From the NCBI GenBank assembly GCA_963924555.1, contig OZ004589.1, positions 4,588,001 through 4,652,000 of the forward strand: DNA of 64,000 nt, written 5' to 3'. Positions within the stretch are counted from its first letter, which is position 1; each line of letters starts with the position of its first letter. The notes beneath the pieces were generated by a model that was given only the letters and a program-made list of their open reading frames with translations, had not been told where the DNA came from and ran no database searches. A program made the translations under genes and the position numbers. Origin of the DNA: Crambe crambe. Taxonomy: Eukaryota > Porifera > Demospongiae > Poecilosclerida > Crambeidae. Of this stretch, positions 1,230-63,301 are shown piece after piece.

Positions 1230-2664
1230 TCAGTCTGTGCATGGCAGAATCCGTGAGTATGCATCACTACGAGTGTGGCTCATTCTTGACGCTGAGGCTG
1301 AGCCACGATATCTTTGATGGATGTTCAGCAATGTCCATTTTTCTGCGCATGCATGTATGCATTAAAGCCATGTAACTACCAACCATAGCTAAACTTACTT
1401 TTTAAATCTTTTCAGCACAATGATCATAATTCCAATGCATAGTGCTATGGTTAACTCTATAGCTACAGTGCAGCCAACAATAACGAAACCAGCAAGATCT
1501 ATAACACCATCATCAATAGTGAATTTGTCTCTGTCAGTTGTACTTGTGCATTCAGCATCATCAAATGTGGAGATGATTGGTTCACATGTTTTATCAATGT
1601 TGAGTTGCACACCTTGAATGAGGATGGACTGAGTAGAGTTTATCCATCGCTGAATAAAAGTCAGTAGTTGTCCTGCTGTGGTCCGTAATGTCCTCTTGAT
1701 GTGTGCCCTGTAGGTCACATGATGAGGAGACTGAGGAATGAAACATAGAAACTGTTCCATTGCTATGTGGGATGCAGTAAAACAACATCCACAAGCTTGC
1801 TGCACTTCCTGGACCAACAGGTCTGTGATATATCTGAGTTTGAATAGTGTGTTAGTCCCCCTCCACTGAATGCAGTCATAGACTCCACTTAGTCGAAGCT
1901 GGAACAGTGAGTCTGGGATTTATCATGCAATGTCACGTCATTTATTAGGCTACATATTTAGCTAGATAGTTAATACAATTACCTTCTTTACTGTTATGTG
2001 AAATGGAGAAAGCGATTGAGGTTTGAGGATTTGTAGTGGGTGATAATTGAGGAGTTGTAGTGGGTGATGATGTGGTGGTGGTATCTGAAAAGAAAAAAAA
2101 ATGGTCCAGCTGAATATACAGTACTATGGTGTTGACAAGGACATAATTATTATTGAGGCAAAGGGGACCTCTTGCAGAGCTTAAGGTTGCAGGGGTGTGT
2201 TCACTCATGAATTATTCATGAGCAAACACATAATCATGAACGAACACGCCCCCGCCACAGTGATTATATCATATACAAATAAAAGACAAAAACCTAAACA
2301 TGGAAAAAAAAAAGCTACAGCTGCAGGTATTTTTTCATACTCCAAACGGGTGTGACAAACACTGGAACCATAAATAATTCTCTCTGAAGCATCATTGTGA
2401 AAAAGTGAAAAAGGATTGTAGCACCAGTTGCCACACCACCTGTCATGAGAATTATAAACTAGCTACTCCTACACTTAGCCTCATGAAATCTATAAGAACA
2501 CAATCAATAAGCTAGTTGATGTCATTGCTATAACTATTAGCTATGTAAACTACATTTGGATACAAAATTTTATACTCACTTTCTCCACATTCTGATAAAA
2601 CAGTATGTACAAAGGAGTTCAAAACCATTAAAATGGTCACAATCCATTGGTATTGTCCTTCCAT
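1230..2664 (-). CDS. Leader-stalk-SEA-like-TM membrane protein, Ig-less family member
   Basis: Four exons are proposed. Exon 1 (2664-2580) is a signal peptide starting MEGQYQWIVTILMVLNSF. Exon 2 (2084-1983) is a Thr/Ser/Pro stalk rich in TTTT and SPTT. Exon 3 (1912-1399) carries the SEA-like domain, with CGC, HHVTYRA, QLLTFIQRW and FDDAEC blocks, then a transmembrane helix ending in KRFKK. Exon 4 (about 1342-1230) is a tail fossil. Exons 1 and 2 end in phase 1 and exon 3 in phase 2, exactly as in the paralogue at 19.7-23.5 kb. No Ig exon is visible between leader and stalk, unlike the paralogues at 5.1 and 25.0 kb. In the tail, DNA similarity to the intact paralogue (GSAS, then ILP) lies one frame away from the spliced frame, which would stop after about 25 residues. 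It may be a functional short form or a decaying gene. Confidence 0.6.
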
Positions 2665-2814
2665 GGAGAGATATACTTGCTCAGAATTATTATAGCTAGC
2701 AATCAAAGTATAGCTATAGCTATTATATCTACAAGGTATTCTGCTGATTTTCACAAATCTGATTTATACTAAGATAATAGCTAGCTTAAGTCTCTGAGTC
2801 CAGGAAGAATTCTT

Positions 2815-2850
2815 CACTTCCGTAGCGCGTTCGTGAATGCGTGATAACTA
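2815..2850 (-). promoter_or_regulatory. Conserved upstream block of the leader-exon family
   Basis: Read on the minus strand, CGCATTCACGAACGCGCTAC lies about 160 bp upstream of the leader ATG at 2664. Close versions lie upstream of the leader exons at 5857, 27802 and 42882, in genes whose downstream parts differ. Conservation outside the coding exon suggests a shared promoter. It could also be simple duplication carry-over. Confidence 0.4.
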
Positions 2851-3545
2851 GCTGCGTTGTGGGCCTGCGGCATAGATACTATACTCCGCCCCGGGATTGG
2901 AAACGGGAGATTTCCCGCGGACACTCCGTGTTGGAGGAGAAGTTACGCGCGGAAATAACCTATAAGAATGGCTTAGGAAGCATATTATAGATGAGCTGAA
3001 AGGACAAGGTAAGCTACAGTACTTACATGTAGCTATAAATAACAATCATCATTTAGCAATACAATAAATTTACATCACATGGTCTGTTGCTGAAGGCTTT
3101 TCTAGCAGATGATTCTATCTACTGAAGCTACAATCCACACTATAAAATTTAGCTTTTTTCTTCCCTACATGAAGTCTTTGAAAAGTAACATAAACTATAA
3201 ATTAATGTTGTAGAGTAGCTAAGTGATCAATTATTTTTACCAAGTGCACCTGATATCCTTGATTATAGAAGCAGGTGTCCGAAAAAAAAATCAAAGATAA
3301 AAGTATCAGATGGATAGAACAGTTTATGGATTATCAAAGTTAGAAGACAGAAAGTTCTATCCTTCCCCTATCTGTATCTCCAGTCAAGCTTCAAATACCA
3401 CTTGTGAGGGAATAGACATGCAGGACTGATACCAGCAGCAGAAAACAGACTTATCAAGTCTCAAAAACTAAACAAAAATCACCAAGTGAACATAATACTT
3501 TGAAGTGTTACATGAGTGCCTCAGGAAATAAATAATGCACTTACA
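2851..3545. other. Intergenic, no gene seen
   Basis: A GC-rich patch (2870-2960, with CCGCCCCGGG) lies just upstream of the leader gene and may be part of its promoter region. The remainder is AT-rich with no convincing exon, ORF or RNA gene. Confidence 0.4.
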
Positions 3546-6040: not shown

Positions 6041-6096
6041 ATAGCTGCGCTGTGCGCATGCGCATATGCGATCTAGCATAATTATGCGCATACTGA

Positions 6097-6155: not shown

Positions 6156-6164
6156 TGTGGCATC

Positions 6165-15893: not shown

Positions 15894-15900
15894 GCTTTGG

Positions 15901-19692: not shown

Positions 19693-22600
19693 TCATGTAT
19701 GTATATACATGTTTGTTTCATTGAGTGTCGGGTTGGGAGAAGGAGATTCACTCAACTTTTCCCTTATGGGGAACCTGCATTTTTGTGGCAGAATCTCTGT
19801 GTACACATCACTAAGTCTGTGGTTGTCACTTTCTTCATGTAGCTTAGCTGACGCTGAGCCATATGCTTGGTTCACAGTGATGTCATAACCCTTACTGCTG
19901 GCAGTAGTGTTCATTTCCCATGCAGACTGTGATGGCTTCCTGCAGTTATAATGCATATTAATTTGCACTGTCACATAATTATTAAACTTACTTCATTAAT
20001 CTTTTCCGTACAATAATCATAATAGCACCACTGACTACTCCAATGACCAGAATTATGGCTACAGTGCAGCCTACAGCAATGCCTACAGCAGACTTTACAG
20101 CACTGTCAACACTCACAGTTGTTATCATCTCAGTGGTTATGTCAGTTGTGCATTCAGCATCATCAAATATGGAGATGATTGGTTTACATGTTTTATCAAT
20201 GTTGAGTTGCACACCTTGAATGAGGATGGACTGAGTAGAGTTTATCCATTGCTGAATGAAGGTCAGTAGTTGTCCTGCTGTGGTCTGTGATGTCCCGTTA
20301 ACTCGTGCCCTATATGTCACATGATGAGGAGACTGAGGAGTGAAACATATGAACCGTTCCTCAGCTATGTTGGATGCAGTAAAACCACACCCACAAGCTT
20401 GCTCCATTTCCTGGACTAACAGGTCAGTCGTATCTCTGAGCTTGGAGAGATGGTTGATCCCCCTCCACTGAATGCAGTCAATAATGCCACTTAGTCGAAG
20501 CTGAAACAATGAACCTGCCATATGGGATTTCCTCATAATCATGAAACACCATGCAGTGGCTAACTAGTGATTATTCACCTCCTTCATTGATAAGAGAGAG
20601 TGTGGTTAGAGTAGTAGGTGGGGCTGTGGTGGAACTCGAAGGGAAAGTAGTGGATGGGGTTGAGGTGGGACCTACCACAAATAGTTTTCACTACAGTACA
20701 ACCATTGATTACATGTAGAGGTGGAGTGTTTGCACATCACAGTGGTTTTGTGGTATCATATAGCTCACTCATTAGTAGAAATGAACAATTTTAACTCTGC
20801 AAAGTTTTACCAGTGCAGACAGTTCCTTCTACAGTGCATGTATCGATGGCTATACACACAAATAAAAAGTTCCAGGAGGGTTGTACACCATCAGAGCTAC
20901 AGTTATCAACCCCACCAATACATTCATTGATGTCCGCACTCATCCAGGATTCAGTAATCTGACATACCATAATTTGCTTTCATTTCATTGTTAGTATTAG
21001 AGCTTAATACAAGCTAGCTGTATTGTATACGAAATTAATTTAACATGAACATTTATTACACAAATAACATGAAATTACAGTCAGTAATTGAAACATACCT
21101 TCACAAGTGGTTCTTCCATCTCCAGTGTATCCTTGGTTACATGTACAGGTGAAGCTTCCAGGAGTGTTGGTACACATAGCATTAAGATGACAGTTGCTAT
21201 TGGCACACTCATCAATATCTGCACTTGGGATTCAGTAATCTAGCATAGCTAATTAGCTACATTTAATAAAAACAGACCTTCACAAGTGGTTCTTCCATCT
21301 CCAATGTATCCTTGGTTACATGTACAGTTGAAGCTTCCAGGAGTGTTGGTACACATAGCATTCAGATGACAGTTGCTATTGGCACACTCATCAATGTCTG
21401 CACTCGAGATTCAGTAATCTGGCATAATCGCATTTAATAAAAACAGACCTTCACAAGTGGTTCTTCCATCTCCAGTGTATCCTTGGTTACATGTACAGTT
21501 GAAGCTTCCAGGAGTGTTGGTACACATAGCATTCAGATGACAGTTGCTATTGGCACACTCATCAATGTCTGCACTCGGGATTCAGTAATCTGGCATAATT
21601 GCATTTAATACAAACAGACCTTCACATATGGTTCTTCCATCTCCAGTGTATCCTTGGTTACATGTACAGTTGAAGCTTCCAGGAGTGTTGGTACACATAG
21701 CATTCAGATGACAGTTGCTATTGGCACACTCATCAATGTCTGCACTCGGGATTCAGTAATCTGGCATAATTGCATTTAATACAAACAGACCTTCACATAT
21801 GGTTCTTCCATCTCCAGTGTATCCTTGATTACATGTACAGGTGAAGCTTCCAGGAGTGTTGGCACATGTGGCATTCAGATGACAGTTGCTATTGGCACAC
21901 TCATCGATATCTATACATGTGTGTAGTGCATGCAGTTAGTTCAAGTGCAATAAAATGGTCACACATAGAACAGCAGCTAGCATACATGTATAGCTATTGA
22001 ACTTTTCAATCATGCATTATATTGCAATACAATATTATCTATGCTATAATGTAGCTAGTATCATTATCTTACCAACACAATTAATGCCATTTCCAGTGTA
22101 TCCTTGGTTGCATATGCAGTTGAAGCTCCCAGGAGTGTTGGTACAGGTAGCATTGGAGTCACAGTTGTTAGTGGTAGTGTTGCACATATCAATGGCTTAA
22201 AAATAAATACGTAGCTCCATGATTTTTCCTTTCCCTGGCCCCCCTTAGTCTGGCATAGCCAACCTTTTACAATTGTGACAGTCGAGGGTAGAAATCAAAC
22301 ACGTTTTAGTCAAAGTTTATTTTTGTCATGACTGATGCTTTACAATAAAATTTTCTGCCTTTCGAACTTTTTTTTCAAAAGTAGAAAGCGTGAATAAAGT
22401 TTGATTTCTACCCTCAACTACTTTTCCTATGGGGAGGTAATTAAGTGTGTAAAGAGTCGGCTATGCCAGGCTAGGCCCCCCTCCCTCTGCCCTCTGTACA
22501 GTACTGCATAGCTACCATCATGCACTAAAATTACAGAGGTAATTGAGGATATATGTAACAATTACCTATAGGAAAATATTTTTTGACATTGTAGTAGCTA

Positions 22601-23451
22601 CAGTTGCTTAGGTGAATTAGCTACAGAATATATCTCCCGCTGTAGCTAATCTCCTTTAGCTAAAATTACCACCGTGTTCTTTCTTTCTGGATATGAAAAT
22701 GCTTATACATAGCTACATGTTACTGTAGCTACTATGAAGGAGTCAGCATGGCAGGGGTTATCTTTCATTGATGGTACTGTAAACTCACCTAATGTTATAG
22801 TGGCCGTGTGACCATTCATATCAGGCACTCCACAGGTGTAGGTTCCAAGTGGTGTCGTGGCATTATTCCTTCGATTCAGACGAACTTGATGAGTGTAAAC
22901 ACTCCTAGTAAAGTCACCATTTGGCGAGTTAACATTACGAGGGACCATGGTACCATCAGGGAAGTACCAGTCTCCCAAGGAATTTCCAGTAGTAGTGCCA
23001 TCAGCAGCCCTACAGCAGCGAGTGTTGACATTTGTAGTGATGCACACAAGAGAAGATCCAGGATCAGGATGACGAAGAACACCAACCCCAATATCAGTGA
23101 CAAATACAGTGTCACCAGGTTGATACACGACACCACTCAAGCTGAAATACAGTCCGGTGCTGGGAGTTGCAGTACCTGAAAGAATTGTCACTTTCCATCA
23201 TAGTTAATAGCTAGCTATACAATGACTCTCCAATAGCTATAGGGGAGGGTACAAAATTAATTTAGTACGTAAGCTGAGAGCTATGACTATTATGCTAATG
23301 GTCCCATCTCCTCCTACAAATATGTATAATCCTGAAGCAATAGCCAAACGCTCATTACATACGTACCTTGAGATTTGACACATCCTATAATTAGCGATAC
23401 TAGTAAAATCTTGCATTCAGACCTTTGCCCAACTAGGAGTGATGCCTCCAT
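19693..23451 (-). CDS. Ig-EGF-stalk-SEA-like transmembrane receptor
   Basis: Eleven in-phase exons give about 685 residues. Exon 1 (23451-23367) is a signal peptide ([20 protein letters not shown]). Exon 2 (23175-22789) is an Ig-like domain of the CC/FPDG type ([22 protein letters not shown]). Exons 3-8 (22195-22073, 21910-21791, 21739-21620, 21568-21449, 21397-21278, 21218-21099) each encode one EGF repeat; five start DIDEC and are calcium-binding. Exon 9 (20671-20579) is a Ser/Thr/Pro stalk. Exon 10 (20514-19992) carries the SEA-like domain ([26 protein letters not shown]) and a transmembrane helix ending RKRLMK. Exon 11 (19939-19693) is an 82-residue tail with tyrosines in [11 protein letters not shown] (NxxY) and VYTEIL. 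A type I receptor is predicted; the ligand and signalling partner are unknown. All junctions are phase 1 except the phase-2 link to the tail. Confidence 0.8.
20815..20925 (-). pseudogene. Decayed EGF exon inside the receptor gene
   Basis: On the minus strand ACATCAATGAATGTATTGG begins an EGF repeat (DINECIGG, then NCSSDG), but the frame breaks before the second half, where TGTACAACCCTCCTGG shows the usual NTPG segment one base out of frame. The acceptor is also damaged: intact copies read TGCAG, this one TGCGG. It lies between EGF exon 8 and the stalk exon and is presumably skipped. Confidence 0.6.
21099..22195 (-). repeat. Tandem array of six EGF exons
   Basis: Five exons of exactly 120 bp and one of 123 bp, separated by introns of 50-60 bp except the longer first (about 160 bp), are near-identical copies. 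The intron flanks are copied too (GATTCAGTAATCT in each). The outermost 5' copy (22195-22073) is the most diverged, with [11 protein letters not shown] replacing [10 protein letters not shown]. Recent tandem duplication or gene conversion explains the pattern. Confidence 0.85.
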
Positions 23452-24996: not shown

Positions 24997-27802
24997 TCAA
25001 CACAAACAATAAGTAATTATTCTTATTATAGTCAAGAAAATAGACACTCGTACTGCTGGCAACATTATAAATAATGAACTTGACTGTCCACTGTTGGAAG
25101 AATCCGAAGTTGTTTCATTCATCTCCATTATTTCTGTTGTGGACAGTAATGTGAAATGCAAAGAAATATAGCAGCATGCATGCATGGAGAGAGATAGTTT
25201 GTAACAAAAAAACAAAAACAAACAATTAATAGCTATCTATTGTAGCTATGCACAATATTCACCTTTTAGTGCATTCCTTTTGTTCCTGATGTTGAATCAT
25301 TATCATTATAGTAGGACTATAATTACAGTGCTGGTGAAAATATACATGTGTCTGTATCAACTTGGGACCCTAATTATACTGCTGTATCATCCCAGTTGTA
25401 AAATATCTTGTTGATACAAGGTTGGTACAGGTTGATACACAGCTATAAACTCAAGTGTAGAAACTACTCATTTCTATGTCTAGTGTTATAGCCTAAAGAA
25501 TCTAGAGAGGGAAATAGTCATATTTTCCCTTCAAATGGCCCCCAATAATAATGACTCATATTTCCCTACATTATCTAGCTAGCTAGCTAGCTACAAATTT
25601 ATACTTTAGTTTTATATATTCACCTCCAGCTCCTTCACTGGTGAAAGTGAATGATGTAGTTGGAATCAGATGGGGTTGTGGGGCTGTGGTGCGGAAAAAA
25701 ACATGTAAGACTGTGGGATCTTGGAGGTGAAAATGCTCATGTTTTATTTTATAGATATGATGCATAACTGGTTAGTTCTTCATGACATTCATTATTATTT
25801 TTGTTTCCTTTAAAATGAAGTTATTTGATTTAACTAGTTGGTTAACTTGTGACCCATAATACCTTTTATGGAATGAAAAAAAAACAACATTTTTTTTGTG
25901 CCAGCCATGCTTGTAAATCAGATGGATAAAATTTAACAGTTAAGAGAATTTTCAATCATTTTGAAGAATTAGTAGGCCAGTATACTTTCTAGTTCCTGTC
26001 ACTGTACATGTATGAACTTCTTTGTGACGGTGGGAATTAAGTCCCTCCTGTTTGTATCCTTCCATAACTCCTATATAGCTATATAGCTACAGTATTGGTT
26101 CCCAAATCTGATTACTAAAGCTAGCTGTGTATAGCTACTCTAGTGAAAGTAAGATTTAGGCAGTCTGTAGCAATGCATAGATCTAGCTATAGTTCTATTA
26201 GACGGCATATAGAATTAGCCCACTTAGTAGGTGAAGCATTTTACAGGTATAGCTAAGCCATAAATATAAAATCAATTTAGCATTGCCTTCATTATAAATG
26301 TAAATGAGATTGGGTTCAAAAATAATTAATTTCAAAGTGGAGTGCATAGAGCTGATCACTTCTTCCATCTTTCAGCATTATCTTTTGCTCATATCTGCTG
26401 CTCTTCCCTTCTAGATGATGAGTCGTGAACATTAGAGTCAGCTTGCTCACTTTGCTCATGCACTTGCAGAATTTCCATTGCCATTAATTATAGCTAGACA
26501 TATTTGACACCATAAAGTTGCAGAATTTGAAAGAATCTGATATTAGGGCTGGGCATGCATGGGGCTGATGAGTGAAGTGTCGACTGTGCTGTACATAGCT
26601 ACTTTGGAATATATAGCTAGCTGTATACAGCTATGATGCTACATCACAACATTGTAATGAATGATACAGTAAATGATACAGTACGTAAATGAATGATACA
26701 ACAAATAACCTAAACACCATGCATGAAAGCGGTGAAAAAAGCCATAGCTGCAAGTATTTTTTCCTACCCCCAAACAGCTATTAGAAAATTTTATTGAATA
26801 TGTATGTGACAAACCCTTACTGAAATCATGCATGTGTAGATCATTACAAAACATTCTAACAGCTATCACTTCTTGGTTAGTTTACTTGTTTCTTTTATGG
26901 TGTTTAAACTATGGTAGGCTTTCCAGCATTGGATAATATGCTTGCAAATTCAAAATAATGCTATACCTTGTTACTCCTTTTGTTGGCGTAGCATTTCTAT
27001 AGCTTCAAACCTAGCCTCTTTCCCCCCCTTTTTGGGCTAGCTTCTCTCTCTAGTTGGAAACCCAGATGGTTATAATTAGTAGCTACGCTAGTATGCAGGG
27101 GGAAAAATCCTGTACCTTCTATCTGAACTTTGAAAGTACATATGTCAAAATTATCACCACCTAGTGCACCAAAGCATCCATATTTGCCTGCATAAGCACT
27201 CTGAAAGTTCGTAAAATAAGTTCCAAAAAATTTGCACTTATTGACCTAAAGGAACAACTGCAATCACTGGGGCGTAGAAAATAATCTTGCTTCTTTTATT
27301 GTGTTCATAATTTTTCTACTTGGTAGCTATGTGATTGGCCCATGGGGGAAAAAAATCCATGTACCTTCTATCTGAACTCTGAAAGTGCATATATCAGCAC
27401 TTATTGTAGTCATACCAAAGCATCCATACTCGCCCGCATAAGCACTCTGAAAGTTCGTAAAATTAAGTTCCAAAAAATTTGCACTTATTGACCTGAAGGA
27501 ACAATTGCAGTCATCGGGGGTTAGAAAAGCAGAACCTTTAATCCACCCGATTCCATTGACACCATTCGCACCAGAGTGCTCACAGAAGACAGTGGCTGAG
27601 CCTCCTTCAGGGATTATCAGAGGATTGGTGGGTTTTTTGATGAAATCTTTAAGTCAGTGGGATAATTAATATCATTATTATAATATGTAAATTACATTGG
27701 ATATCATTCATACTCACTTTCTCCGCATGCTGATAAAATCGTATGCACAAAGGAGTTCAAGACTATTAAAATGGTCACAATCCATTGGCATTGTTTTCCC
27801 AT
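24997..27802 (-). CDS. Single-Ig surface protein with stalk and hydrophobic end
   Basis: Four phase-compatible exons give 187 residues. Exon 1 (27802-27718) is the family leader (MGKQCQWIVTILIVLNSF). Exon 2 (27646-27365, 282 bp) is an Ig-like domain, FIKKPTNPL to DICTFRVQIE, very close to the one at 5411-5692. Exon 3 (25683-25624) is a short Pro/Thr stalk ending EGAG. Exon 4 (25133-24997) reads MNETTSDSSNSGQSSS and then a hydrophobic end, LFIMLPAVRVSIFLTIIRI, stopping four residues after ITYC begins. The end may be a GPI signal or an anchor, though two arginines interrupt it. The 1.4 kb intron between exons 2 and 3 contains a broken second Ig exon. Exons 3 and 4 are assigned by splice phase only and are less certain than exons 1 and 2. 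Confidence 0.5.
27116..27271 (-). pseudogene. Truncated, frameshifted duplicate of the Ig exon
   Basis: It copies the 3' half of the Ig exon at 27365-27646 (from the DCSCSF region to the donor). The 5' half is missing, and one T is lost in the stretch GTAAAATAAGTTCC (the intact copy has GTAAAATTAAGTTCC), which shifts the frame. The donor GTAC is retained. It is unlikely to be used productively. Confidence 0.6.
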
Positions 27803-27892
27803 GGAGCCTATAGCTAGCTAAATAATTATAGCTCAGAATAATTAGCTTTACACCAATCTAATTATTAAGATATTAGCTAGCTGGAATTCAGG

Positions 27893-27950: not shown

Positions 27951-28097
27951 GCGCGAGCGCGAAATATTAAGCAGTACGCGCGCGCATGTGCTGAGTGCAC
28001 GCTTTTCTTTTGGGGCGTGTCCAAAACAGAGTAGAACAAAATGAAAGCTATGGGCTCAATATCTAGGCATAGATAGTAATAATGTTAAGGTGTAAAA

Positions 28098-30020
28098 TAA
28101 TTATGCATGCCTTTCTTTAGCTCCAATGATAACTCAATTAGGTAGCACAGCTGCTTACTACTAATGGCCTTGATAGCAAGATGATCTCTAGCTATTTAAA
28201 GATGTTAGAGTAGGTGGTCTTGTTACAGGTGATCTGATTACATATTATTAGGTTTGTTATTTCGTTTCATTTTGTTTTTGTTTTTATTCTTTCTTCTTCT
28301 TCTTCTTCTTCTTCTTCTTCTTCTTCTTCTTCTTCTTCTTCTTCTTCTTCTTCTTCTTCTTCTTCTTCTTCCCACAGTTACTACAGATAGTGTCAACATA
28401 ACATGTGATCCAAATCGTGGACAACTCTTCACCACCAATCAACTTAACCTCACCTGCACCACCTACCTGAACCCACTCCTGTGAGTGTAATCCATGGGTG
28501 GGAAGGATCTTCTTCAGGTATGATTACATCAGGCACTAATGGCAGGACGATCAGTCCAGTCACTGGATCTGGAAACTGATACAGCTCTGTTCTCCGATTC
28601 AGTTCCTTGCATTCATCCGATACTGGGAATTATACTTGCACCTCTTCTGTGACCTCCCAATCAACTTCAGTAGCTATGTGACAGTGGATTGCAGTCTGCT
28701 GGTACTTTATTCAGTGGAGGTGGGCCAGGGGGCCTGAATATTTTTAACATGGTGATCTATAGACCCTTTAACATGTCCCTAGCTTTATCATATGTTCTAG
28801 AGAAGATGTAATAGACAATTTATTATCCATCCAATGAGGAAACAGTCCCTTTAGCTTTCAGTTGCTATAGCTATTAAGATACACCATAGCTAGCTAAGAG
28901 TTTATTGATCTCGCAGATATGTGAGTTACTATCAAAGTCTCCTACACACCTCCTGATCAGTACCTTGACTACTCTCCTCCCAACTATCGTGCTGCCTCCT
29001 CAGTCACTTTGACCTGTGTGGCATCTGGTACATCTGGGTCTGCCTCTTATCGCTGGTCCTCCACCTGCCCTAGCTGTTTTGCTTCCAGTTTGTCATCCAG
29101 AAGAATAACAAAAAAAAATCCTGACGGCCAGTGATGCTGGAATGCACACTTGTAGTGCAAGTGACGGTGCATGCAGGCAACACAGGGAGTAACAGTACTA
29201 CTATGAGGATATTGGGTGAGTGTATCTAATCATGCCTCATAACCCCCTCCTACCATCAACTACCATAATTTGCTTTTATTTCGTTATTATATTTTCGTAC
29301 ACTTGTACATGTACGAAAATATTTACAACGAAATGTGTAATTAGTATTACAAGCTAGCTGTATTGTAAGAAATCAATTTATTACATCAAATTATTTTTAA
29401 CATGAAAATTAATATTAGCGAATTACAGTAAATCTTTTCAAAGACCAACTTTATCATTATAGGTGCTGGCATATATATACCTTCATTTATGGAGGCACAC
29501 AGGCAGCACAACCACAAAATAGCTATGTCATTGTTGATATAGAAATTGGTATTCTAGCAGAAATAGGAGATTAGATATGTACTGCTGCACCAATTCAAGT
29601 TCATCAAAAGGAGTTATCACCTATCCTGATGGTAACAAGTACAGTAGTGGATACTATGCAAGTCAACACACAAGTGGAAATTATGCTGGATGTATTCAAC
29701 TCTATATTAACTAGTCTTATTATTCTTTTAATTATCCGGGTACTGGTATCTACACATGTACTATACCAGATAGCAATAATAATAATATTGCCATTAACTT
29801 CGGACTCTACAGGGAAGGATTCAATAGTAAGTTGGTGGTGATTAATGAAGCTATAATTATAATAATTATGTTTGCAGGCTTCCCCAGCATCTATCAGCTA
29901 GAACACTCTGATCCTCAGGATGATAATTATGTTGACTTTCACTTGCATGACTCAAAATGCACCTGCTGGGTGTCCATAAATAGAACTTTTCGTCCAGATA
30001 TAGATGGGTTTAAGTGAAGC
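28098..30020 (+). pseudogene. Pseudogene copy of four exons of the eleven-Ig gene
   Basis: This block duplicates 34136-35960, introns included. Exon 7 copy (28378-28719) carries a deletion after AACCCA and meets TGA at 28482-28484. Exon 8 copy (about 28917-29215) has an extra A in the run after AGAATAAC and an inserted ATGC near 29170. Exon 9 copy (29463-29826) has deletions in the INYNYW and GSYWY regions. Exon 10 copy starts at 29878 and loses similarity near 29965. No leader or downstream exons accompany it, so it is a partial tandem duplicate 6 kb upstream of its source. Its splice sites are still recognisable. Confidence 0.8.
28290..28370 (+). repeat. (CTT)n microsatellite in a splice-acceptor tract
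   Basis: About 80 bp of CTT repeats precede the acceptor of the pseudogene exon at 28378. The equivalent tract in the functional gene (34331-34352) has only seven to eight units. The long Leu or Arg reading frames across it are artefacts. Confidence 0.85.
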
Positions 30021-30937: not shown

Positions 30938-33900
30938 ATGCAGGAGTTTTTAGTCTTTGTCTTGATCTTGATGGCTGGAGTCCTTCCAGTTAAGCCATGT
31001 GATGCTGGTGAGCTTTTGGAGCCATAGCTGTTAATTGAGCATGAGTTATCAAATAAGATAGTAGCTAGCTGGCTAAATAAGATCTTAATGTAGGGGACGT
31101 GAAGGTCAAGATTGTGCCTACATACACTGCACCCTCGTCCCCACTTGACCCTCCATTCTACCGTGCTGCCAGTTCCCTTTCCCTCTCTTGTGAAGTGGAA
31201 GGAGTGGAGGATGTTTCTGGTCTCATTTACCAGTGGACCTCCATCTGCTCTGGCAATTGCTTTACAAGGGGAATGACTTCCAGAAGTGTTTCCACTATTT
31301 ACGGTCTTCGCTCCATAGACAGTGGTGTGCACTCATGCATGGTGTATGACCATCTGGGTTGCAGTGGTACTGCAAACATCACCATCAAAGTAGTAGGTGA
31401 GCAAAATTAGCTATGGAGTGTTTGTAGTACATGTAGTAGCTAATTATAATGACAGCTATACAAAGTCTATACATATATAGACAGCATTTTACATGTGCAG
31501 TAGCTATGGCTACAGTAGCTATGGCTACAGTAGCTAGATACGTATAAATTTAGCCACAGCTGAAAGGACTGGAAATACAATTTTTTGGTGTCCATGCATG
31601 CATTTCAAATGCATGTTGAATACATTTAATTTTGGAAATCTCCCAAGGAAGCTTTATAGCTGATTTTGATGTTTCCTGCATATAATTATTTGCCCCATAA
31701 TATAGGTGCTGGTATTTATCTGCACCGTGGTAGAGGACAAGTCCTCCCCAATATCAGCGTCATTACCACTGACCATTCTGGTCGCATCCCAAGATTTCGT
31801 TGCTTCTCTGGTTCCTCCACCCCAAATGTCGGGAAACTGATTGATCCTCGTGGGAAGGACATCACTAATTCGCCTTCTGATCCTTTCATAGTTCAACAAG
31901 GATCTAGTTTTGAACCAGGCTCACTAGTGGTCAGTAGTGTGAAACCACTAAATTCAACTGATGTTGGAATATATACCTGCCACATACCGGATGAAAATGG
32001 AGTCTTGGTGGATGTGAATTTTGGACTTTACCTGTCTTCAATAACTAGTAATAATAATTCATACATAAGAGGGGAGGGGGCAACTCTTTATAATTTTTCA
32101 CTCAGACTTTTAACGATTTGTCTTTCTTTGCCCAGGTGGTCCTACTATAAGTGAATTAGACGATTCCCTTCTCAGTTCTCCTTTCACCATCTCCTGTTCG
32201 TCCCGTGACTCCCCTCCCACTGAGGTCATCTGGGAGAAAGATGGTGAAAGAATCTACTTCAACAGCTCCAGTATCTACCAGCTCACCCAGACACTTGTGA
32301 ATCGCAAAACTTCAACCTACAACAACACCCTCACCATCAATGGCACCATTGAAGACGTGATTGGAGAATACTGCTGCACTGTGACCAACAGGTTGGGGAC
32401 TTCAAACGAACTCTGCAAATCACTTAAAGGTATACTGGATAATGAATTAGCACATGCCTGCAATCAGACATGAAAGAGTGTCCTGACTACAACAGAATGT
32501 CCTGATTATAATAGAGTGTCGTGACTGTAATTGAGTGTCCTGATTATAATTATTGATATAGTGTCCCAGATAGAGTAGAATATCTTTGCATTTGAGTGAG
32601 TCCAAATTGAGGATCTCCCTTGAAGAGTGTATAGCTAAACCTGTGGTCAAAATGATGGATAAATCCCCCCTGCAGCTATAGACATCAGTGGTTATGAATC
32701 TCCTGTGGTCATTGGCCTTCAAAAGGACATCAATTGCACCACTTTTCTAAATGTGACAATGATGGAGTGGATACTAGTGGGTGTTGGGGAGCCTGTGGAG
32801 AGGAGTAATCGAGAGCAGAGTCTGATCCTAACACTCAACCCTGATACCACTGGATTGAATGGAGCCACCTTTACATGCAGAGTCACTACTGCAGAAAGTG
32901 GAAAAAAATTCGAGGAAAGCATTACTATCAAAGTCAAAGGTGAGCTAAAATGTATGTACGCTGTATGACTTATGCATATCATGTCAACCCAACTGTTTCT
33001 TTGTGTGAAACTTCTGATACTGATATGATAGGATTTTTAGTGCAAGGGTAAAATTTTGAAATATTGAGAACCATCCTTTATCAAAACCACAGAATCCACG
33101 CAAATTTTATCTCACAAAAATTAATCTATCATGTGGAAATTTCACCTCTTGTAGAACCCTTAAAGTGCATGGTTATATTATCAAGGGTTGCATTGACTAT
33201 GACCATAATCTGTTTTGGCCCCACAATTGGATCTTGCATGCATGTCTTTTTAATTTTATGGTACTATCTGTTGCGGTCCTACAGATAAATTTTCTTGACC
33301 ATTCTTATCAGTGGCATTGTAACATGATTTATAACATGATTTGTGGTTGGTGACAAGGTACAGCTGGCTACTTGGAAACTTGTCATAATAATATTTTGCC
33401 AACTACTAAGCATGCAGGCTACGTGGATCCTTAGCTGCACTCTTTGAAGAATTTTTTTTTCAATATTTATTGTTTGGAAAGACACATTTTGAAAATAAAA
33501 ATGAGTTGCTCACTATCAAGGCATGTGATGCATAAGGTGAACTCAAATTTAAGTAATCATGTTGTTCTATTTTCTATAATTATGTGGAGATTGCATCTCA
33601 TGCGAATCTTTGCTAGTTAGTCAAGCCACATTCACCATAGCTCCAAAGTTTGCTTGAGATGAGTGTATTATCTAATAGTTATTTTAAGATGGCTGGTCAT
33701 GAACCACAAGAATAATAAGGATAATGTAAACAAACCCTGAGATTCTTGTTCACAATAATTATTAGCAGTCCATTTTTATTACATGCAGAGTTGCAGCACA
33801 TTGTAGAGATTGGTGCTCTCCAGGGCTGCCCAGATGCAGGCAGCAATTTTTCTTTAAATTGCACCATTACTTCAGATTTCGTTCCAATGATACAATGGCT

Positions 33901-36900
33901 TGATCCCCATAGTAACCCAGTGTTGATTAATGGAAGTGATATATGGGTGGACCCTCTGGACATTGTAGGGAATACTACCACACTAGTTCTGAGGTTCACA
34001 CCTCTCAAAACGGCACATGGAGGAAATTACACTTGTGTCTCTATGATCAGCAAACCGTTTTCTATTAAACGAACGACTAAACACCTCAAAGCGAAGAGTA
34101 AGTAGTAAATAGATGACTGTAATTAAATTAAAGTGTAAAATAATTATGCATGCCTTTCTTTAGCTCCAATGATAACTCAATTAGGTAGTATAGCTGCTTA
34201 CTACTAATGGCTGGCCTTGATAGCAAGATGATCTCTAGCTATTTAGAGTAGGTGGTCTTGTTAGTGATCTGATTACATATTGGGTTTGTTGTTTTGTTTC
34301 GTTTTGTTTTGTTTTTGTTTTCTTCTTAATTCTTCTTCTTCTTCTTCTTCTTCCCGCAGTTACTACAGATAGTGTTAACATAACACGTGATCCAAGTAGT
34401 GGACAACTCTTCACCACCAATCAACTTAACCTCACCTGCACAACCTACATGAACCCATGTGTGAACACTCCTGTGAATGTAATCCATGGGTGGGAAGGAT
34501 CTTCAGGTGTGATTACATCAGGCACTAATGGCAGGACGATCAGTCCAGTCACTGGTTCTGGAAACCAATACAGCTCTGTTCTCCAATTCAGTTCCTTGCA
34601 TTCATCCGATACTGGAAATTATACTTGCGCCTCTTCTGTGACCTCCCAATCAACTTCAGTATGTGACAGTGGATTGCAGTCTGCTGGTACTTCATTCAGT
34701 GCAGGTGGGGGCTTGAATATTTATAACATGCTGATCTATGGACCCTTTACCATGTCCCTTTGTCACGTATTCACTAGAGAAGATTTATAGATAATATCAT
34801 TATTATCCATACAATGAGGAAACAATCCCTTTAGCTAGTTTTCAGTTGTGTGTAGCTAGTTATTAAGATATACCATAGCTAAAAGTTTATTGATCTCACA
34901 GATATTCAAGTTACTATCAAAGTCTCCTACACACCTCCTGATCAGTACCTTGACTACTCTCCTCCCAATTATCGTGCTGCCTCCTCAGTCACTTTGACCT
35001 GTGTGGCATCTGGTACATCTGGCTATGCCTCTTATCGCTGGTCCTCCACCTGCCCTAGCTGTTTTGCTTCCAGTTCGTCATCCAGAAGAATAACAAAAAA
35101 CATCCTGACGGCCCGTGATGCTGGAGTGCACACTTGTAGTGTAAGTGATGGTGCAGGCAACACAGGGAGTAACAGTACTACTATGAGGATAGTAGGTGAG
35201 TGTATCTAATCATGCCTCATAACCCCCTCCTACCATCAACTACCTTTTATTTCGTTATTATAATATTTTCATACACTTGTACATGTAAGAAAATTATTTA
35301 CAACGAAAATTTTAATGTGTAATTAGTATTACAAGCTAGCTGTATTGTAAGAAATTAATTTATTACATCAAATTATTTTAAACATGAAATATTAGCGAAT
35401 TATGGTAAATCTTTTCAAAGACCAACTTTATCATTATAGGTGCTGGCACATATATACCTTCAACATATTCCATTTATGGAGGCACACAGGCAGCACAACC
35501 ACAAAATAGCTATGTCATTGTTGATATAGGAAGTGGTAGCTATTGGTATTCTAGCAGAAATAGGAGATTAGATGTGTACTGCTGCACCAATTCAAGTTCA
35601 TCAAAAGGAGTTATCACCTATCCTGATGGTAACAAGTACAGTAGTGGATATGCAAGTCAACACACAAGTGGAAATTATGCTGGATGTATTCAACTCTATA
35701 TTAACTATAACTATTGGTCTTATTATTCTTTTAATTATCCGGGTACTGGTATCTACACATGTACCATACCAGATAGCAATAATAATAATATTGCCATTAA
35801 CTTTGGACTCTACAGGGAAGGATTCAATAGTAAGTTGGTGGTGATTAATGAAGCTATAATTATAATAATTATGTTTGCAGGCTTCCCCAGCATCTATCAG
35901 CTAGAACACTCTGATCCTCAGGATGATATGTTGACTTTCACTTGCATGACTCAAAATGCACCTGCTACTGACATCAAATGGTTCAGAGATGATATGAGGT
36001 TGGAAATCGATGGAAAAAACATTCAAATGAGCACAAGAATCACCTCAAGGCACAATTCTTACACTAACATCACTCTGAAGATTAATGACACTCCTGAAAA
36101 TATCACTGGAGTCTACACATGCCAAGTTGGAAATAAGTTTGGGAGCAATGATGAGACAGTAGAAGTAAATGGTAAATATAATTGTGTCATTTTAATTATA
36201 GCTCACCTGATCAAATACTTTTTTATGTACAGGTTTACAGATCTATTGCAATTCTTCTGAATTCATCGTTGGAGAGAATCTTAATTGCTCCTGTTCAAGT
36301 GACCTCGACCCAATATTAATCCAGTGGTTCTCAGGAAGTGATATCTACTCATCTCAGTATCGAATTGATGATGATACTCCAAACATCACGACTCCATTAA
36401 CATCAAACATCACGATTCCAATAACCACAGATGTGGGACACATTTATCGTTGTTCAGTGATAAGTCCATATGGCACACAACAAGACAACGTTACTCTACA
36501 AAATCCTGAAGGTATGACACTGTTATTACAAGCATCAGGAGGGAGGGTTGAACCTCCAATAAAAGACACTCCAAAGAGGACATTACATAATCTATAAAAA
36601 ATAGCCTCCAAACTTGAGAGAACAACCTCTCTACAGATGGGTCCCAAGTGTGTCACTGTATTATGTATATATATATATATATTCTAGCTATAATATTATC
36701 GTAGTTCTTTTTTATGATGACCTTGGATAAACTGAGCATGTGCTCTCATCCCACAATGTTTGCCTTTCCTTAGTAGAATAAATTGAAGCGGTCCTGCTAT
36801 TCCTGTAATGATGAGTATGTGAATTTATCCCTAGCTGTGGAGTTAATTTTGATTGCATGACAACTTGAATACCTGTAGTTCCTGATGATTGGTGTCAAGT

Positions 36901-38057
36901 CAGCATTAGTAACCTTGGTGGTGAAAATGCTCTACTTCTCAGTGAGCATTCCCTGGTATGCACCGTAACAGCAATTCCTGGCATGACACTCCCCCTTCAG
37001 TTGAGTGGGTGGGGCCTAATGGGACCATCCTATCAAGTGGAGGAAACAGGACTGTAGGTTCAGCGAATAAACAAGGAACTGTCTCCACCTTCTCCCTCTC
37101 CTTCAATCCTGTCCTCAACTCCGATGGAGGGACATACACTTGCAGGGCAGCTGTCCACGTTCCATGGATGAGTACACAACCAAGGAAGATCTCTGCCTCA
37201 TTTCATATGCCAGTCACAAGTGAGTCACGTGATCATGAATGGAAGCTGCCACTCATCCATAAATATAACACATGCGTACAGCTCAAGCCATTATCCAGCT
37301 GAAGATTTCTCCGTTACCTCACTGTGCCAACTGGGATGTAAGCATTACTTATGAGATAAAAGTTTGATTATAGTTATAAAGTAGCTACGTATACTCTGAG
37401 CTGTTCAAGTCGCTCCTGGAAAAGTGTTCCTGATTAGAGAGGTGTCCTTACTTCAGGGCAGAGGTATTGGAAGCAAGGTTCGATTGAATTGAAATGTACC
37501 CCCACAGCCACGGAAGCTCTAAATTCACTATAATTTGATATATTTGAGCATCAATGATCATTCTCTTGTTATTGATTGACAGTCACTCATTAAAGTTAAC
37601 TGTTTTCTCATTGCATTGGTCAGGCCTGGGCCTGGACCTGTTCCACTGCCTATGCAGGGGACACAGCTGCATATGCAGGGGGAATAGCTGTAGCTGGCTA
37701 TTCATAATGGCTTTAATAACAAAATTACAGGTGCATAAAGCTCTAGATGTGGAGGCCTCCATCAAAAGAGTACTGGAGAGTGCTGTGAGGGAGCGTTGTG
37801 ATTGCAACTTCAGCTCCAGGTCCATTTTCTCTGGAGAGTTCAGTTGCCAGTCCACCAGTTCCCTCATCACTCACGTTATTTACCGAGCCACTATCAATGG
37901 GACCAGTGACCTCCTTACTACAAACCAGATCATGAAGCATATTGATGACTGGCGTGAGTCCAGGGGCACTCTACTCTACAAAATATTCCGTTTGAAGGTG
38001 TCCAGCAAGAGTGAATGCCCACTCACCATTGATTCATTTGACGACCAAGAGTGCTAG
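30938..38057 (+). CDS. Large eleven-Ig-domain receptor-like protein, one frameshift
   Basis: Thirteen exons are proposed (about 1,318 codons). Exon 1 (30938-31007) is a signal peptide (MQEFLVFVLILMAGVLPV). Exons 2-12 each encode one Ig-like domain with phase-1 borders: 31094-31396, 31706-32047, 32136-32429, 32676-32939, 33789-34097, 34360-34704, 34902-35195, 35440-35829, 35881-36171, 36233-36511, 36879-37219. Canonical Cys-Trp-YxC positions are visible (for example LTFTC, IKWFRD, GVYTC in exon 10). Exons 3 and 9 are the CC type. Exon 13 (37624-38057) encodes a SEA-like domain ending FDDQEC at a stop, with no transmembrane helix. All Ig exons are multiples of three except exon 12 (341 bp), which needs one extra base in a C run at 36991-36995. 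It may be secreted or a recent pseudogene. Exon 13's membership is uncertain. Confidence 0.7.
31094..34097 (+). repeat. First five-Ig module of the large gene
   Basis: Exons 2-6 match exons 8-12 (34902-37219) domain by domain. Exon 2 and exon 8 share FYRAASS/NYRAASS, a Trp followed by clustered cysteines (WTSICSGNC, WSSTCPSC), and SGVHSC/AGVHTC. Exon 3 and exon 9 share GAG(I/T)Y and GIYTC.IPD. Exons 4 and 10 are ordinary Ig domains starting near ISELDD and IYQLEH. The order is preserved, so an ancestral block was duplicated, with exon 7 (34360-34704) at the seam. Confidence 0.6.
32478..32575. repeat. Imperfect minisatellite in an intron
   Basis: About five units of the form GTGTCCTGATTATAATAGA follow one another. 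A related array (GATGTCCTAGTATGACTA) is at 49733-49837. Both are intronic and show no coding potential. Confidence 0.55.
37624..38057 (+). CDS. SEA-like domain exon with its own stop
   Basis: From about 37741 the translation reads ALDVEASIKRVLESAVRE, then CDCNF, HVIYRATINGTS, QIMKHIDDW and IDSFDDQEC followed by TAG. It matches the SEA-like domain of the receptors at 1.4, 20 and 62.5 kb but lacks their transmembrane segment. A phase-1 acceptor (GGTCAG at 37618-37623) can join it to Ig exon 12, but the first 35 residues so produced (FHCLCRGHSCICRG) look non-coding. The DNA from 37575 to 37720 instead resembles the 5' flank of the gene starting at 46304 (shared TTGGTCAGGC, CTGTTCCAC, ATGGCTTTA). 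It may therefore be a separate chimeric gene with ATG at 37708. Confidence 0.5.
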
Positions 38058-42670: not shown

Positions 42671-42710
42671 CTATATCTTGATACGCGTGTGCGGTAGCTA
42701 TAAGAGCTAT

Positions 42711-42881: not shown

Positions 42882-44154
42882 ATGGGAGGACAATGCCGAT
42901 GGATTATGAGCATTTTAATGGTCTTAAATTCCTTTATGCATACAGTTTTATCAGCATGCGGAGAAAGTGAGTATAATATAAAGTGAGTATAATATAAAAG
43001 TATGTAGCTATCCGAATGTAATTTACATAATATAGCTACCAATGACAGCCTATTATAATTATTATTATTGATTGTATTCTTATAGATTTCATTGAAAGAC
43101 CCACCAATCCTCTGGTAATCCCTGAAGGAGGTTCAGCCACTGTCTTCTGTAAACACTCTGGTGCAAATGGTGTCAATGGAATCGGGTGGATTAAAGGTTC
43201 TGCTTTTCTAACCCCCAATGACTGCAATTGTCCCTTCAGGTCAATAAGTGCAAATTATTTGTAACTTAATTTTACGAACTTCCAGAGTGCTTATGCAGGC
43301 GAGTATGGATGCTTTGGTATGACTGCAATAAGTGCTAATATAGAAGTATGCACTTTCAGAGTTCAGATAGAAGGTACATGGTTTGTTTTTTGTTGTTGTT
43401 GTTTTTTTATCTCCCATGGGCCAATCGTATAGCTAGCTACCAAGTAGAAAATTATAAATTCCATAAAAGAAGCAAGGAAACCAACTAATACTTACCACAA
43501 AAGAAAGTTTATATGTAGCTACATATGCAGTGACAGGAACTAAAGTATTCACCTTGCCCCTTGATATAACTGCTAGCTATAGCTAGCCTTCTCAATTCTT
43601 CAGAGGTGGATTAGCAGCTCTCTGTTGATGCATTTGTAATAATATTATAGTGATCACTTTAATGCATTTTTGTGGTTAGTTGTAAAGTGTATTTAACACT
43701 TGTCATTTCAGTATTTTTGTCAGTCCATCAGTCCGTTGTTCAGTTGAATAAGATTACAGCATTAAACTAGAAATTTGGTTAATTCTTCAAAATGGTCAAA
43801 AAGTGCTAAATTCCATCATTATGGCGGTCTACAATTACTATGGGTCACGAGTCATCATATTGTGCTAGTTAATTTACTTCATTTCAAAGGAAACACAATA
43901 ATGAATGTGATGATAGAATGTAGAACAAAATTTTAACCACAGTTACACATCATGGCCCCTAGGGGAAGATAAGCATTTTCATCTCTAAGATCCCCACAGT
44001 CTTATATAATGTTTTTTTTTTCTCAGATAATACCACCATCATATTATTATCACCAGTGACATCATTCGAAGTTGGAACAATGAGTCTGGGATTTATCATG
44101 CAATGTTACATCATTGTTGGAATGTTAGCTCTAGCTACATATTTAGCTAGCTAG
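42882..44154 (+). pseudogene. Pseudogene copy of the single-Ig surface protein
   Basis: The exon layout equals that of the 5.1-5.9 kb gene: leader (42882-42966, MGGQCRWIMSILMVLNSF), Ig exon (43086-43373, 288 bp) and C-terminal exon (44027-44154, ending GFIMQCYIIVGMLALATYLAS). Splice sites and phases are intact. The Ig exon, however, has an in-frame TAA at 43262-43264, where the 5.1 kb copy reads TTGGAACT and this one TTGTAACT; a single base change accounts for it. The product would stop after about 86 residues, in the middle of the Ig fold. A sequencing error or a polymorphic null allele are alternatives. Confidence 0.65.
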
Positions 44155-46303: not shown

Positions 46304-56287
<9,984 letters not shown>

Positions 56288-56294
<7 letters not shown>

Positions 56295-58663: not shown

Positions 58664-58672
58664 TTATTATTA

Positions 58673-61037: not shown

Positions 61038-61743
61038 AGAAAAAGAACGAAAAGTCAATTTTAGAACTCGTTTTTTTCTTATGTTGGCGAATGAATTTTT
61101 GGCTTTTGAACATTCTCCTCTCTTCTTTGTGGATATATTAATTCACTGTAGCCTTCTGAGAACCTGTAGAGTAAGGGTAGAAGAGAAAGAAGAGTTTTTA
61201 GTTTATACTGTCCTATGGACTTTGACCTGCCATCCCTACTTAGAGAGTGCTACCGCACTCTCTGAAGAGTGCTACCGCACTCTCTGATAAAGAAAAAGAA
61301 CAAAAGTCAATTTTAGAACTCGCTTTTTTCTTATGTTAGCGAATGAATTTTTGGTTTTGAACATTCTCCTCTCTTCTTTGTAGATGTAATAATTCACTGT
61401 AGCCTTCTGAGAACCTATAGAGTAAGGATAGAAGAGAAAGAAGAGTTTTAGTTTATACAGTCTTATGACCTTTGACCCGCCATCCCTACTTAGAGAGTGC
61501 TAACGCACTCTCGATAAAGAAAAAGAACGAAAAGTCAATTTTAGAACTCGTTTTTTTCTTATGTTGGCGAATGAATTTTTGGCTTTTGAACATTCTCCTC
61601 TCTTCTTTGTGGATATAATAATTCACTGTAGCCTTCTGAGAACCTGTAGAGTGAGGGTAGAAGAGAAAGAAGAGTTTTTAGTTTATACTGTCCTATGGAC
61701 TTTGACCTGCCATCCCTACTTAGAGAGTGCTACCGCACTCTCT
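61038..61743. repeat. Three tandem copies of a ~225 bp unit
   Basis: Each unit runs from AAGAAAAAGAACGAAAAGTC to CCATCCCTACTTAGAGAGTG and ends in the palindrome AGAGAGTGCTACCGCACTCT. An inverted copy is at 57777-58000. Reading frames in the units repeat with them (LANEFLAFEHSPLFF) and are not considered genes. Confidence 0.7.
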
Positions 61744-62544
61744 GATTGTACTGTGAGCTGGAGACTTTTGGATAGAAGTAGAAGGACTATTGACAGAAGG
61801 CTATCCTCTAGTGTAGCAAGGAGTTTTACTCTGCCAAACCGTAAGTCCTACCAAAGCTGTAATGCTTACCACTAAATACAGAAGCATACAATCCACCTAG
61901 CACCTATGGTACTATCCAGAGTGGCTGTAGAAATCAATACAGCAATTACAATTGGAGGATTAGCTACTAACAGTTCCTGCATAATAATATGGCATTAGAT
62001 ATTAGCTATTTGTGGTGTACAACCCCATCCACTACTCTCCCTTCAAATTCCACCACAGCCCCACTATTCTAACCACACTCTCTCTTGCCACTATAGCTAC
62101 CTATCAATGAAGGAGATGAATAATCACATAGTTGTAGCTAGGCCTTGATGGATTATGCTAGCATAAATTTGAGAATAATAGGAGCTTTTGTATACATTGT
62201 GCAATTCTACATCATGGTAGTGGGTATCAATCAGTGATCTAATGGCAACAGAAGGAGCAGCTGAAATAGTTTTAACTGACTCTGAATGAGAGTCTGACCA
62301 TAGTGAAGATAATTGTAGCTTATAAACACTGATGCTGAGACTAATGCATTCATAAATGTTTGCTATATTAGAAAAGGGTCAACAGAATAATAAGCTAAAA
62401 AAGAATAATAGCAAAAATAAAAGAATAATAGGTGATATAAAAATAAGAATTTGAGAATAGAAAAAATAAAAGCATAATTCAAAGGCTTAGTTATAACCAT
62501 TAGTGTTAGCTACATGATAATGATGAAATCCCATGTGGCGGCAG
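61744..62544 (+). other. Upstream remnant with decayed stalk exon
   Basis: The stretch 62024-62115 follows the stalk exon of the 19.7 kb receptor (AACCCCATCCACTACT, CCTTCAAATTCCACCACAGC, AACCACACTCTCTCTT), but a deletion brings in a stop, the acceptor is lost and a short insertion precedes AATGAAGGAG. No leader, Ig or EGF exon is seen upstream. The rest contains AATAATAG-rich sequence (62390-62480). Confidence 0.5.
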
Positions 62545-63301
62545 GTTCATTGTTTCAGCTTCGACTAAGTGGCATTTTTGACTGCATTCAGTGGAGGGGA
62601 ATCAACCCTCTCTCCAAGCACAGAGATATGACTGACCTGTTAGTCAAGGAAATGGAGCAAGCTTGTGGGTGTGGTTTCACTGCATCCAATATAGCTGAGG
62701 AACGGTTCGTATGTTTCATTCCTCAGTCTCCTCATCATGTGACATACAGGGCACGAGTTAACAGGACATCACAGACCACAGCAGGACAACTACTGACCTT
62801 CATTCAGCAATGGATAAACTCTACTCAGTCGATTCTCATTCAAGGTGTGCAACTAAACATTGATAAAACATGTGAACCTATCATCTCCACATTTGATGAT
62901 GCTGAATGCACAACTGACATAACCACTGAGATGATAACAACTGTGAATGTTGACAGTGCTGTAAAGTCTGCTGTAGGCATCGCTGTAGGCTGCACTGTAG
63001 CCATAATTCTGGTCATTGGAGTAGTTAGTGGTGCTATTATGATTATTATAAGGAAAAGATTGATGAAGTAAGTTTAAAAATTATGTGACAGTGCACGATA
63101 GTAATTATGCATTATAACTGCAGGAAGCCATCACAGTCTGCATGGGAAATGAACACTACTGCCAGCAGTAAGGGTTATGACATCACTGTGAATGAAGCAT
63201 ATGGCTCAGTGTCAGCTAAGCTACATGAAGAAAGTGACAACCACAGACTTAGTGACGTGTATACACAGAGATTCTGCCACAAAAGTGCAGGTTCCCCATA
63301 A
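62545..63301 (+). pseudogene. 3' fragment of the SEA-like-TM receptor with truncated tail
   Basis: Exon 62545-63067 is 523 bp, exactly the length of exon 10 of the 19.7 kb gene, and keeps the full SEA-like domain ([10 protein letters not shown] to FDDAEC) and transmembrane helix (IRKRLMK). The tail exon (63124-63301) is the same up to SDVYT, then a 2-bp insertion (GTGTATACACAGAG against GTGTACACAGAG) shifts the frame; it reads QRFCHKSAGSP and stops, losing about 25 residues including the EIL after the tyrosine. No leader or ectodomain exons accompany it and the stalk exon upstream is broken. It is probably a partial duplicate, although a transcript from a new promoter could still encode a membrane protein. 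Confidence 0.7.

Follow-up and report, generated by a model that had tools for sequence, protein, structure and literature searches.

An outlying island of Ig-type receptor genes in the sponge Crambe crambe, probably part of large germline-encoded recognition-receptor families

In this study, we analysed a stretch of 64,000 nucleotides from the genome of the sponge Crambe crambe (C12:4588001-4652000, in the following the window), in which five receptor-type gene models (A, B, C, D and E) lie together with a whole-gene pseudogene and fragments. We favour, with moderate confidence, a reading in which the window is a small island of large germline-encoded families of recognition receptors, where gene A signals and its V-like domain, named CCR-Ig by us after the motif CCR..WYFPDG, binds varied ligands that are likely non-allogeneic. 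The island unites members of several families and is an outlier of these rather than a self-contained complex, since eight profiles of modules from the window and related copies had no match at E<0.01 in the 30 kb on either side and the arrays of the families lie elsewhere. It has long been asked how a sponge discriminates between self and non-self, or between friend and microbe, and the parts of the literature consulted offer aggregation factors, NLRs and SRCRs as candidates.

The favoured reading is carried by the pattern of variation in CCR-Ig. We aligned 56 stop-free copies, comprising 40 from the arrays on C12 and C10 (among 150 scored) and 16 other profile matches (16 of the 28 in the loci extracted, the remaining 12 being partial or weak). 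Most positions are near-fixed, and variation lies in three clusters plus some scattered sites, with 12 adjacent pairs of variable sites versus 4.9 expected (P=0.00025). Site models were fitted with our own codon program, which gave a one-ratio likelihood of -7537.72 versus -7537.71 from IQ-TREE. For 55 distinct copies, M2a improved on M1a by a twofold log-likelihood difference (2dlnL) of 256.5, or 298.7 with another tree, assigning 5-9% of codons to a selected class with a dN/dS ratio (omega) of about 4.5-4.8. The selected codons were 28, 29, 42, 51, 52, 71-73, 84 and 113, where codon 113 belongs to an indel close to the FG position. The M2a gain amounted to 101.4 for the C12 array alone (21 copies) and 68.2 for the C10 array alone (11 copies), to 154.6 and 111.6 for the 5' and 3' halves, each with its own tree, and to 192.4 for gap-free codons; codons 29, 52 and 71-73 recurred in both arrays. 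The same test was run on the exon encoding the SEA-like module and the transmembrane segment (SEA-like/TM exon) as a control, where 16 copies yielded a 2dlnL of 8.3 (P=0.015) and one site. Among these many paralogues, selected sites are concentrated in the distal domain when compared with this control. In four tandem genes, dN/dS per module (6 pairs each) ranged from 0.94 to 1.37 in CCR-Ig, from 0.24 to 0.82 in the SEA-like/TM exon and from 0.10 to 0.54 in the tail. Strong diversifying selection focused on a few CCR-Ig codons is supported by these data, together with greater conservation of the stalk, transmembrane segment and tyrosine-bearing tail, and such codon-focused selection in turn supports a recognition repertoire. 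Two further comparisons were set aside: binning of pairs with low dS (dN > dS in 49 of 56 pairs at dS 0.05-0.1) selects low dS by design, and the contrast in counts between variable and frame sites (1.24 versus 0.56) is partly circular, as variable sites had been chosen by entropy.

Several results weigh against the favoured reading. Fisher tests of CCR-Ig versus the SEA-like/TM exon in the same gene pairs reached P<0.05 in three of six array pairs and in none of four pairs involving gene A, whose own CCR-Ig shows an omega of 0.66-0.83 versus the array genes. Across bins of total distance, omega of the whole domain stays at 0.66-1.04, and per-site counting found 1 site with an excess of change and 20 with a deficit. 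Cluster 1 and codon 84 lie off the classical positions of complementarity-determining regions (CDRs), and other variable sites are scattered. M2a can additionally be inflated by gene conversion; the four-gamete test gave a fraction of 0.68-0.76 whatever the distance, with no trend (P=0.38), a result that speaks neither for nor against conversion or loop shuffling between copies. The assignment of CCR-Ig to the Ig fold is weakly supported: its best profile match in PDB was weak (Ig part of LRRC4B, E=0.069), V-set_CD47 was matched by 9 of 26 copies with a best E of 0.017 and gene A itself had no Pfam match, and the AlphaFold2 model is of low confidence (predicted local distance difference test, pLDDT, 45), with strands in B to G order. 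Taking the Cys-Trp-Cys order into account, which was recognised by eye, we consider CCR-Ig a putative Ig domain, on evidence that is weak to moderate. On this assignment, clusters 2 and 3 would fall at the BC and C'-D positions, like CDR1 and CDR2, and cluster 1 would not be CDR-like.

Genome-wide, CCR-Ig is represented by 299 candidate copies, of which 150 were scored. Stops were found in 17 of the 150 scored stretches, and five of these 17, when fetched, showed none within the domain itself. Its arrays lie mainly on C12 (0.09-0.60, 0.87-1.04, 2.5-3.4 and 6.66 Mb), C10 (5.75-6.1 Mb) and C9 (1.75-1.83 Mb), and a 30-kb part of the C12 array contains tandem repeats of the order CCR-Ig, (EGF), SEA-like/TM, tail. 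At C12:6650001-6670000 (L017-L018), 22 EGF exons in near-identical groups follow three CCR-Ig copies. The SEA-like/TM exon has 95 matches in the genome, and this number, like that of CCR-Ig, exceeds chance. The Ig type of gene B gave 63 matches (52 on C11, 8 on C16 and 3 in the window). The Ig of gene C gave 9, of which 5 fall in the window and the other 4 on C15. Close to these C15 relatives, inspection by eye showed another Ig-like exon (L029) as well as an SRCR-like stretch (L030), which suggests that the Ig type of gene C is used in larger receptors on C15. I-set Ig domains number 1138 candidates, none of the 150 scored lying in the window. Other regular arrays of I-set Ig exons at C9:2.6-3.4 Mb and C13:3.5-3.9 Mb apparently represent a different large Ig family. 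Outside this genome, a pattern search of genome and viral contig collections (without eukaryotes) returned 26 and 35 matches, none of which was confirmed, and a variable Ig multigene family in a sponge was not found in the titles and opening parts of abstracts of open-licence PMC papers.

It should be noted that all counts refer to one haplotype. The assembly analysed holds 143,139,886 bases in 119 contigs, and the published odCraCram1.1 holds 143,197,480 bases in 124 scaffolds (PMC12166358, consulted in part), so that a few small pieces are absent here; the alternate haplotype is GCA_963924525.1 according to the same part of that source. Contig C12 very probably corresponds to chromosome 9, C10 to chromosome 7 and C15 to chromosome 12.

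The open model of gene A comprises 685 amino acids in 11 exons, with six calcium-binding EGF domains (EGF_CA in Pfam), one exon shared by the SEA-like module and the transmembrane segment, and a tail of 82 amino acids. In 12 aligned tails from four loci, YxEI is present in nine and YEDI in one more, and NQxY is present in 11. Y-x-E-I resembles a docking site of the Src-type SH2 domain, and the conserved tyrosines argue for signalling through the tail. We propose a model in which gene A would be a single-pass receptor displayed at the cell surface, whose outermost V-like domain may bind varied ligands via a few variable stretches, while the EGF domains, a serine/threonine-rich (S/T) linker and the conserved, Cys-rich SEA-like module would hold this domain off the membrane and the short tail would pass on a phosphotyrosine signal through its NQxYG and YxEI motifs. 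Paralogues would multiply in tandem arrays and be selected for different loops, and islands such as the window would arise by dispersal and subsequently decay via inversion, exon loss and point mutation.

The nature of the ligands is where the favoured reading departs from the initial annotation, in which the window had been described as an allorecognition-like locus that may take part in self/non-self recognition or cell adhesion. Recognition as a function is backed by the diversifying selection in CCR-Ig; an allorecognition locus specifically found no support. That the receptors, or a few of them, are polymorphic self-markers or sensors controlling fusion and rejection of sponges, comparable to Alr1 and Alr2 of Hydractinia, agrees with diversifying selection in the distal domain and with a gross make-up as in the Hydractinia complex, where clustered single-pass membrane genes of the immunoglobulin superfamily (IgSF) occur with many pseudogenes (PMC11067881, in the part consulted). 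However, the 150 scored copies of CCR-Ig are spread across several contigs, and none of the terms 'immunoglobulin', 'Ig-like' and 'receptor' appears in the part consulted of one graft transcriptome study, made in Amphimedon (PMC5450542), so we regard this explanation as improbable. Because of copy number and genomic spread of CCR-Ig, microbial or symbiont ligands appear favoured over the less probable allogeneic ones: at least 150 copies diversified among paralogues are more like an innate-immune repertoire than an allorecognition system of one or two loci. In Aplysina and Dysidea, Ig-type and EGF/Ig genes are, according to part of PMC6208332, among those changing expression after exposure to microbial molecules.

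Ig and EGF modules are common in adhesion proteins, and the proteins of the window could alternatively be structural glue of the matrix, with variation among paralogues as tolerated drift. A whole-domain omega below 1 in seven of eight distance bins fits with this, and a review, as far as consulted, assigns mainly adhesion roles to the sponge IgSF (PMC11999971). Drift, however, does not produce a class with an omega of about 4.5-4.8 appearing at identical codons of two arrays next to a conserved module, and the tail tyrosines speak for signalling; we consider an adhesive role of this kind rather improbable. Decay of the island itself is a separate matter and compatible with any reading of the family. 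That the window is mostly functionless debris of the arrays would account for the pseudogene of gene C, the broken copy of gene B exons, the frame break in gene B, the truncation of gene E, the frameshifted copy of the gene A tail, the missing Ig exon of gene D and the degenerate EGF exon. The initial annotation is right in outline: a whole-gene pseudogene and multi-exon fragments had been listed there, and the analysis confirmed the pseudogene of gene C, the broken copy of gene B exons 7-9 and the inverted copy of the last two exons of gene A. For the receptor-type genes, of which at least five had been counted initially, five models stand, of which A, C and D are the only ones open throughout, A with the degenerate EGF exon omitted and D with its tail acceptor picked to retain the frame of its relatives; gene B breaks its frame and gene E is unreadable beyond 56290. 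These three open models argue against general debris, as does an omega of 0.37 between gene A and its own inverted copy in the SEA-like/TM exon (12 non-synonymous and 10 synonymous changes), a value that does not distinguish which copy was constrained. We therefore regard predominant debris as unlikely, although it deserves more weight than an allogeneic or adhesive role.

Going beyond the favoured reading of recognition-receptor families, we tentatively suggest a more specific picture, about which we are more doubtful: a germline repertoire of V-like receptors (150+ copies) with CDR-like clusters on one conserved frame and with a signalling stalk and tail in common. Its loops may undergo shuffling between copies, and its members may gain new C-termini by local inversion, with an antisense intron turned into the membrane-anchor exon of gene C. 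If true, this would be a recognition system fixed in the germline yet antibody-like at the base of animals, and a sponge would be using a V-like domain in a CDR-like manner. With its selected codons, tail motifs and mapped arrays, an Ig-type family of this size offers defined codons and exons for testing, and Crambe crambe has deep long-read data and a second haplotype for this.

FREP, VCBP and Sp185/333 are germline-diversified immune receptors of invertebrates, and the Crambe genes share with them large multigene families and diversification in the germline. They differ in that the Crambe receptors are transmembrane with a tyrosine tail, and no fibrinogen domain was found among the 23 window proteins covered by our Pfam scans. 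Receptor tyrosine kinases of sponges carry an Ig ectodomain and a single transmembrane segment, both shared with receptors of the window, whose tail is, in contrast, about 80 amino acids long (gene A stops after 82). No window coordinate is among the kinase matches listed, and a linkage of the island to a tyrosine kinase was considered and rejected on this basis. Sponge aggregation factors are likewise candidate genes of self-recognition; unlike these, the window gave no Calx-beta match among the 23 proteins, the rest of the window being outside the Pfam scan. With the Hydractinia Alr complex, the window has in common clustered IgSF single-pass membrane genes with varied ectodomains, mixed with pseudogenes (PMC11067881, same part). 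It differs from this complex by EGF domains, S/T linker and SEA-like module, by arrays on multiple contigs, more copies and a secreted class. The Ig-TIR, SRCR and NLR repertoires of sponges described in part of PMC6208332 are comparably large; no TIR, SRCR or NACHT domain was found among the 23 window proteins, and no variable loops are described in that part of the source.

Table 1. Features of the window, with positions counted from its first nucleotide.
Feature	Position	Strand	Basis
Gene A: leader, V-like CCR-Ig, 6 EGF, S/T linker, SEA-like module, transmembrane segment (TM), tail	19693..23451	-	splice model, EGF_CA, genome-wide copies
CCR-Ig exon of gene A (variable V-like domain), 129 codons	22789..23175	-	
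Variable cluster 1 (ahead of strand B); selected alignment codons 28, 29	23063..23086	-	
Variable cluster 2 (at the BC loop if read as Ig); codons 51 and 52 under selection	22979..23011	-	
Variable cluster 3 (at C'-D if read as Ig); codons 71-73 under selection	22922..22939	-	
Six EGF exons of gene A, five in 171-bp tandem array	21099..22195	-	
Degenerate EGF-like exon without AG acceptor, omitted from gene A model	20809..20949	-	
SEA-like module and TM exon of gene A (SEA fold unconfirmed)	19992..20514	-	
Cytoplasmic tail exon of gene A, NQxYG and YxEI motifs	19693..19939	-	
Inverted partial copy of last two exons of gene A, with open SEA-like/TM and, as judged by eye, a frameshifted tail	62545..63304	+	
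Gene B: leader, 11 Ig-type exons (two CCR-like), SEA-like exon ending in stop	30938..38057	+	
Broken partial copy of gene B exons 7-9	28076..29967	+	
Gene C: leader, one Ig, hydrophobic (glycosylphosphatidylinositol-like) C-terminal exon; 163 aa	5136..5857	-	
Pseudogene of gene C, whole gene, one stop (TAA in Ig exon), inverted relative to gene C	42882..44154	+	
Further copy of gene C leader and Ig exon	27360..27840	-	
Gene D, 260 aa, lacking an Ig exon: leader, S/T linker, SEA-like module, TM and short tail	1230..2664	-	
Linker-intron-SEA junction of gene D; antisense strand matches last exon of gene C and pseudogene	1893..2059	.	
Gene E: leader, three Ig-like domains, fibronectin type III (FN3)-like part by eye	46304..56290	+	

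Gene models (Table 1) were built by hand from the raw sequence, and frames and splice sites were then verified by script; since exons were placed manually on AG/GT sites, the canonical splice sites are partly so by construction. Pfam Ig models exceeded the curated cut-off in 4 of 15 Ig-type open reading frames scanned singly (32114-32470, 34883-35206, 35409-36257 and 36946-37299), the others being below the cut-off or without a match, and a Pfam Ig profile above the cut-off was additionally found in gene E. The host had been taken for a sponge in the initial annotation, and rightly so. Its description of shared phase-1 modules holds for the exon junctions with the exception of the TM-to-tail junction (phase 2) and the last junction of gene B, located after the frameshift, and its EGF modules were found only in gene A within the window. 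The SEA module could not be confirmed: none of 17 copies matched the SEA profile (PF01390), no PDB match was obtained, and AlphaFold2 models of four window copies were poor, with a mean pLDDT of 36. The SEA profile also had 0 matches genome-wide, which shows little, as control genomes were likewise silent. The label SEA is consequently used for resemblance only.

In gene B, the frame is broken in exon 12 at a run of C, and it is uncertain where the SEA-like exon begins. The terminal stop of this exon was at one point considered a sign of decay, an explanation rejected because the same stop is present in 13 of 14 related exons fetched from C11, all 13 ending 0-1 codon past the same ..EC as gene B. 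On C11, the SEA-like exon has 16 matches, 14 of which make up the fetched set; one of the two omitted, near 1215721, has an open frame. Most likely, the absence of a transmembrane segment from gene B is therefore a family trait and points to a secreted class. The secreted and short-anchored forms noted initially would thus belong partly to this conserved class and partly, as in gene C, to an anchor born locally, and not merely to decay.

For gene C, nothing follows the hydrophobic C-terminus. The reverse strand of the linker-intron-SEA junction of gene D aligned with the last exon of the pseudogene copy at a local score of 145 and with that of gene C at 97, versus 26 in the sense direction; maxima over 300 shuffles were 28 and 32, and a separate comparison gave E=3.7e-25 and 1.1e-12. 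The last exon of gene C has 2 matches in the genome at E<=1, both in the window, and we take the arrangement of gene D as the older one because this exon is found only at this locus and the SEA-like exon is widespread. From the alignments, a local inversion appears to have given gene C its hydrophobic end, that is, an exon would have been born from the antisense strand, and this end may anchor the protein. An anchor exon of such origin would clearly illustrate how inversion can create a new protein end. Gene D has a leader like that of gene C and a short tail with YSRI instead of YxEI and without NQxY. For gene E, no 3' end was found, as the reading runs into a repeat array. This array of direct and inverted repeats (56282-61746), some of them 97-99% identical, adjoins the end of the gene E frame. 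The initial bases of one of its units are seen again around 63412, next to the gene A copy, and near-identical copies are present in L013. A segment beside gene A (18920-19075) matches 63467-63622 at 83%.

Further elements are interspersed in the window. A cytochrome P450 frame (39115-40629, minus strand; Pfam E 4.6e-112), open over about 504 codons and free of introns, lies in the middle of the receptor island. A transposon-like element (10975-15893) consists of a single open reading frame of 1005 amino acids (12172-15189, plus strand) between inverted repeats of about 450 bp that are 77% identical; the sole Pfam match of this frame is weak and of Tudor type. Degenerate reverse-transcriptase-like fragments at 6045-7266 were recognised by eye only, and a pure TC dinucleotide run of 489 bp extends over 48362-48850.

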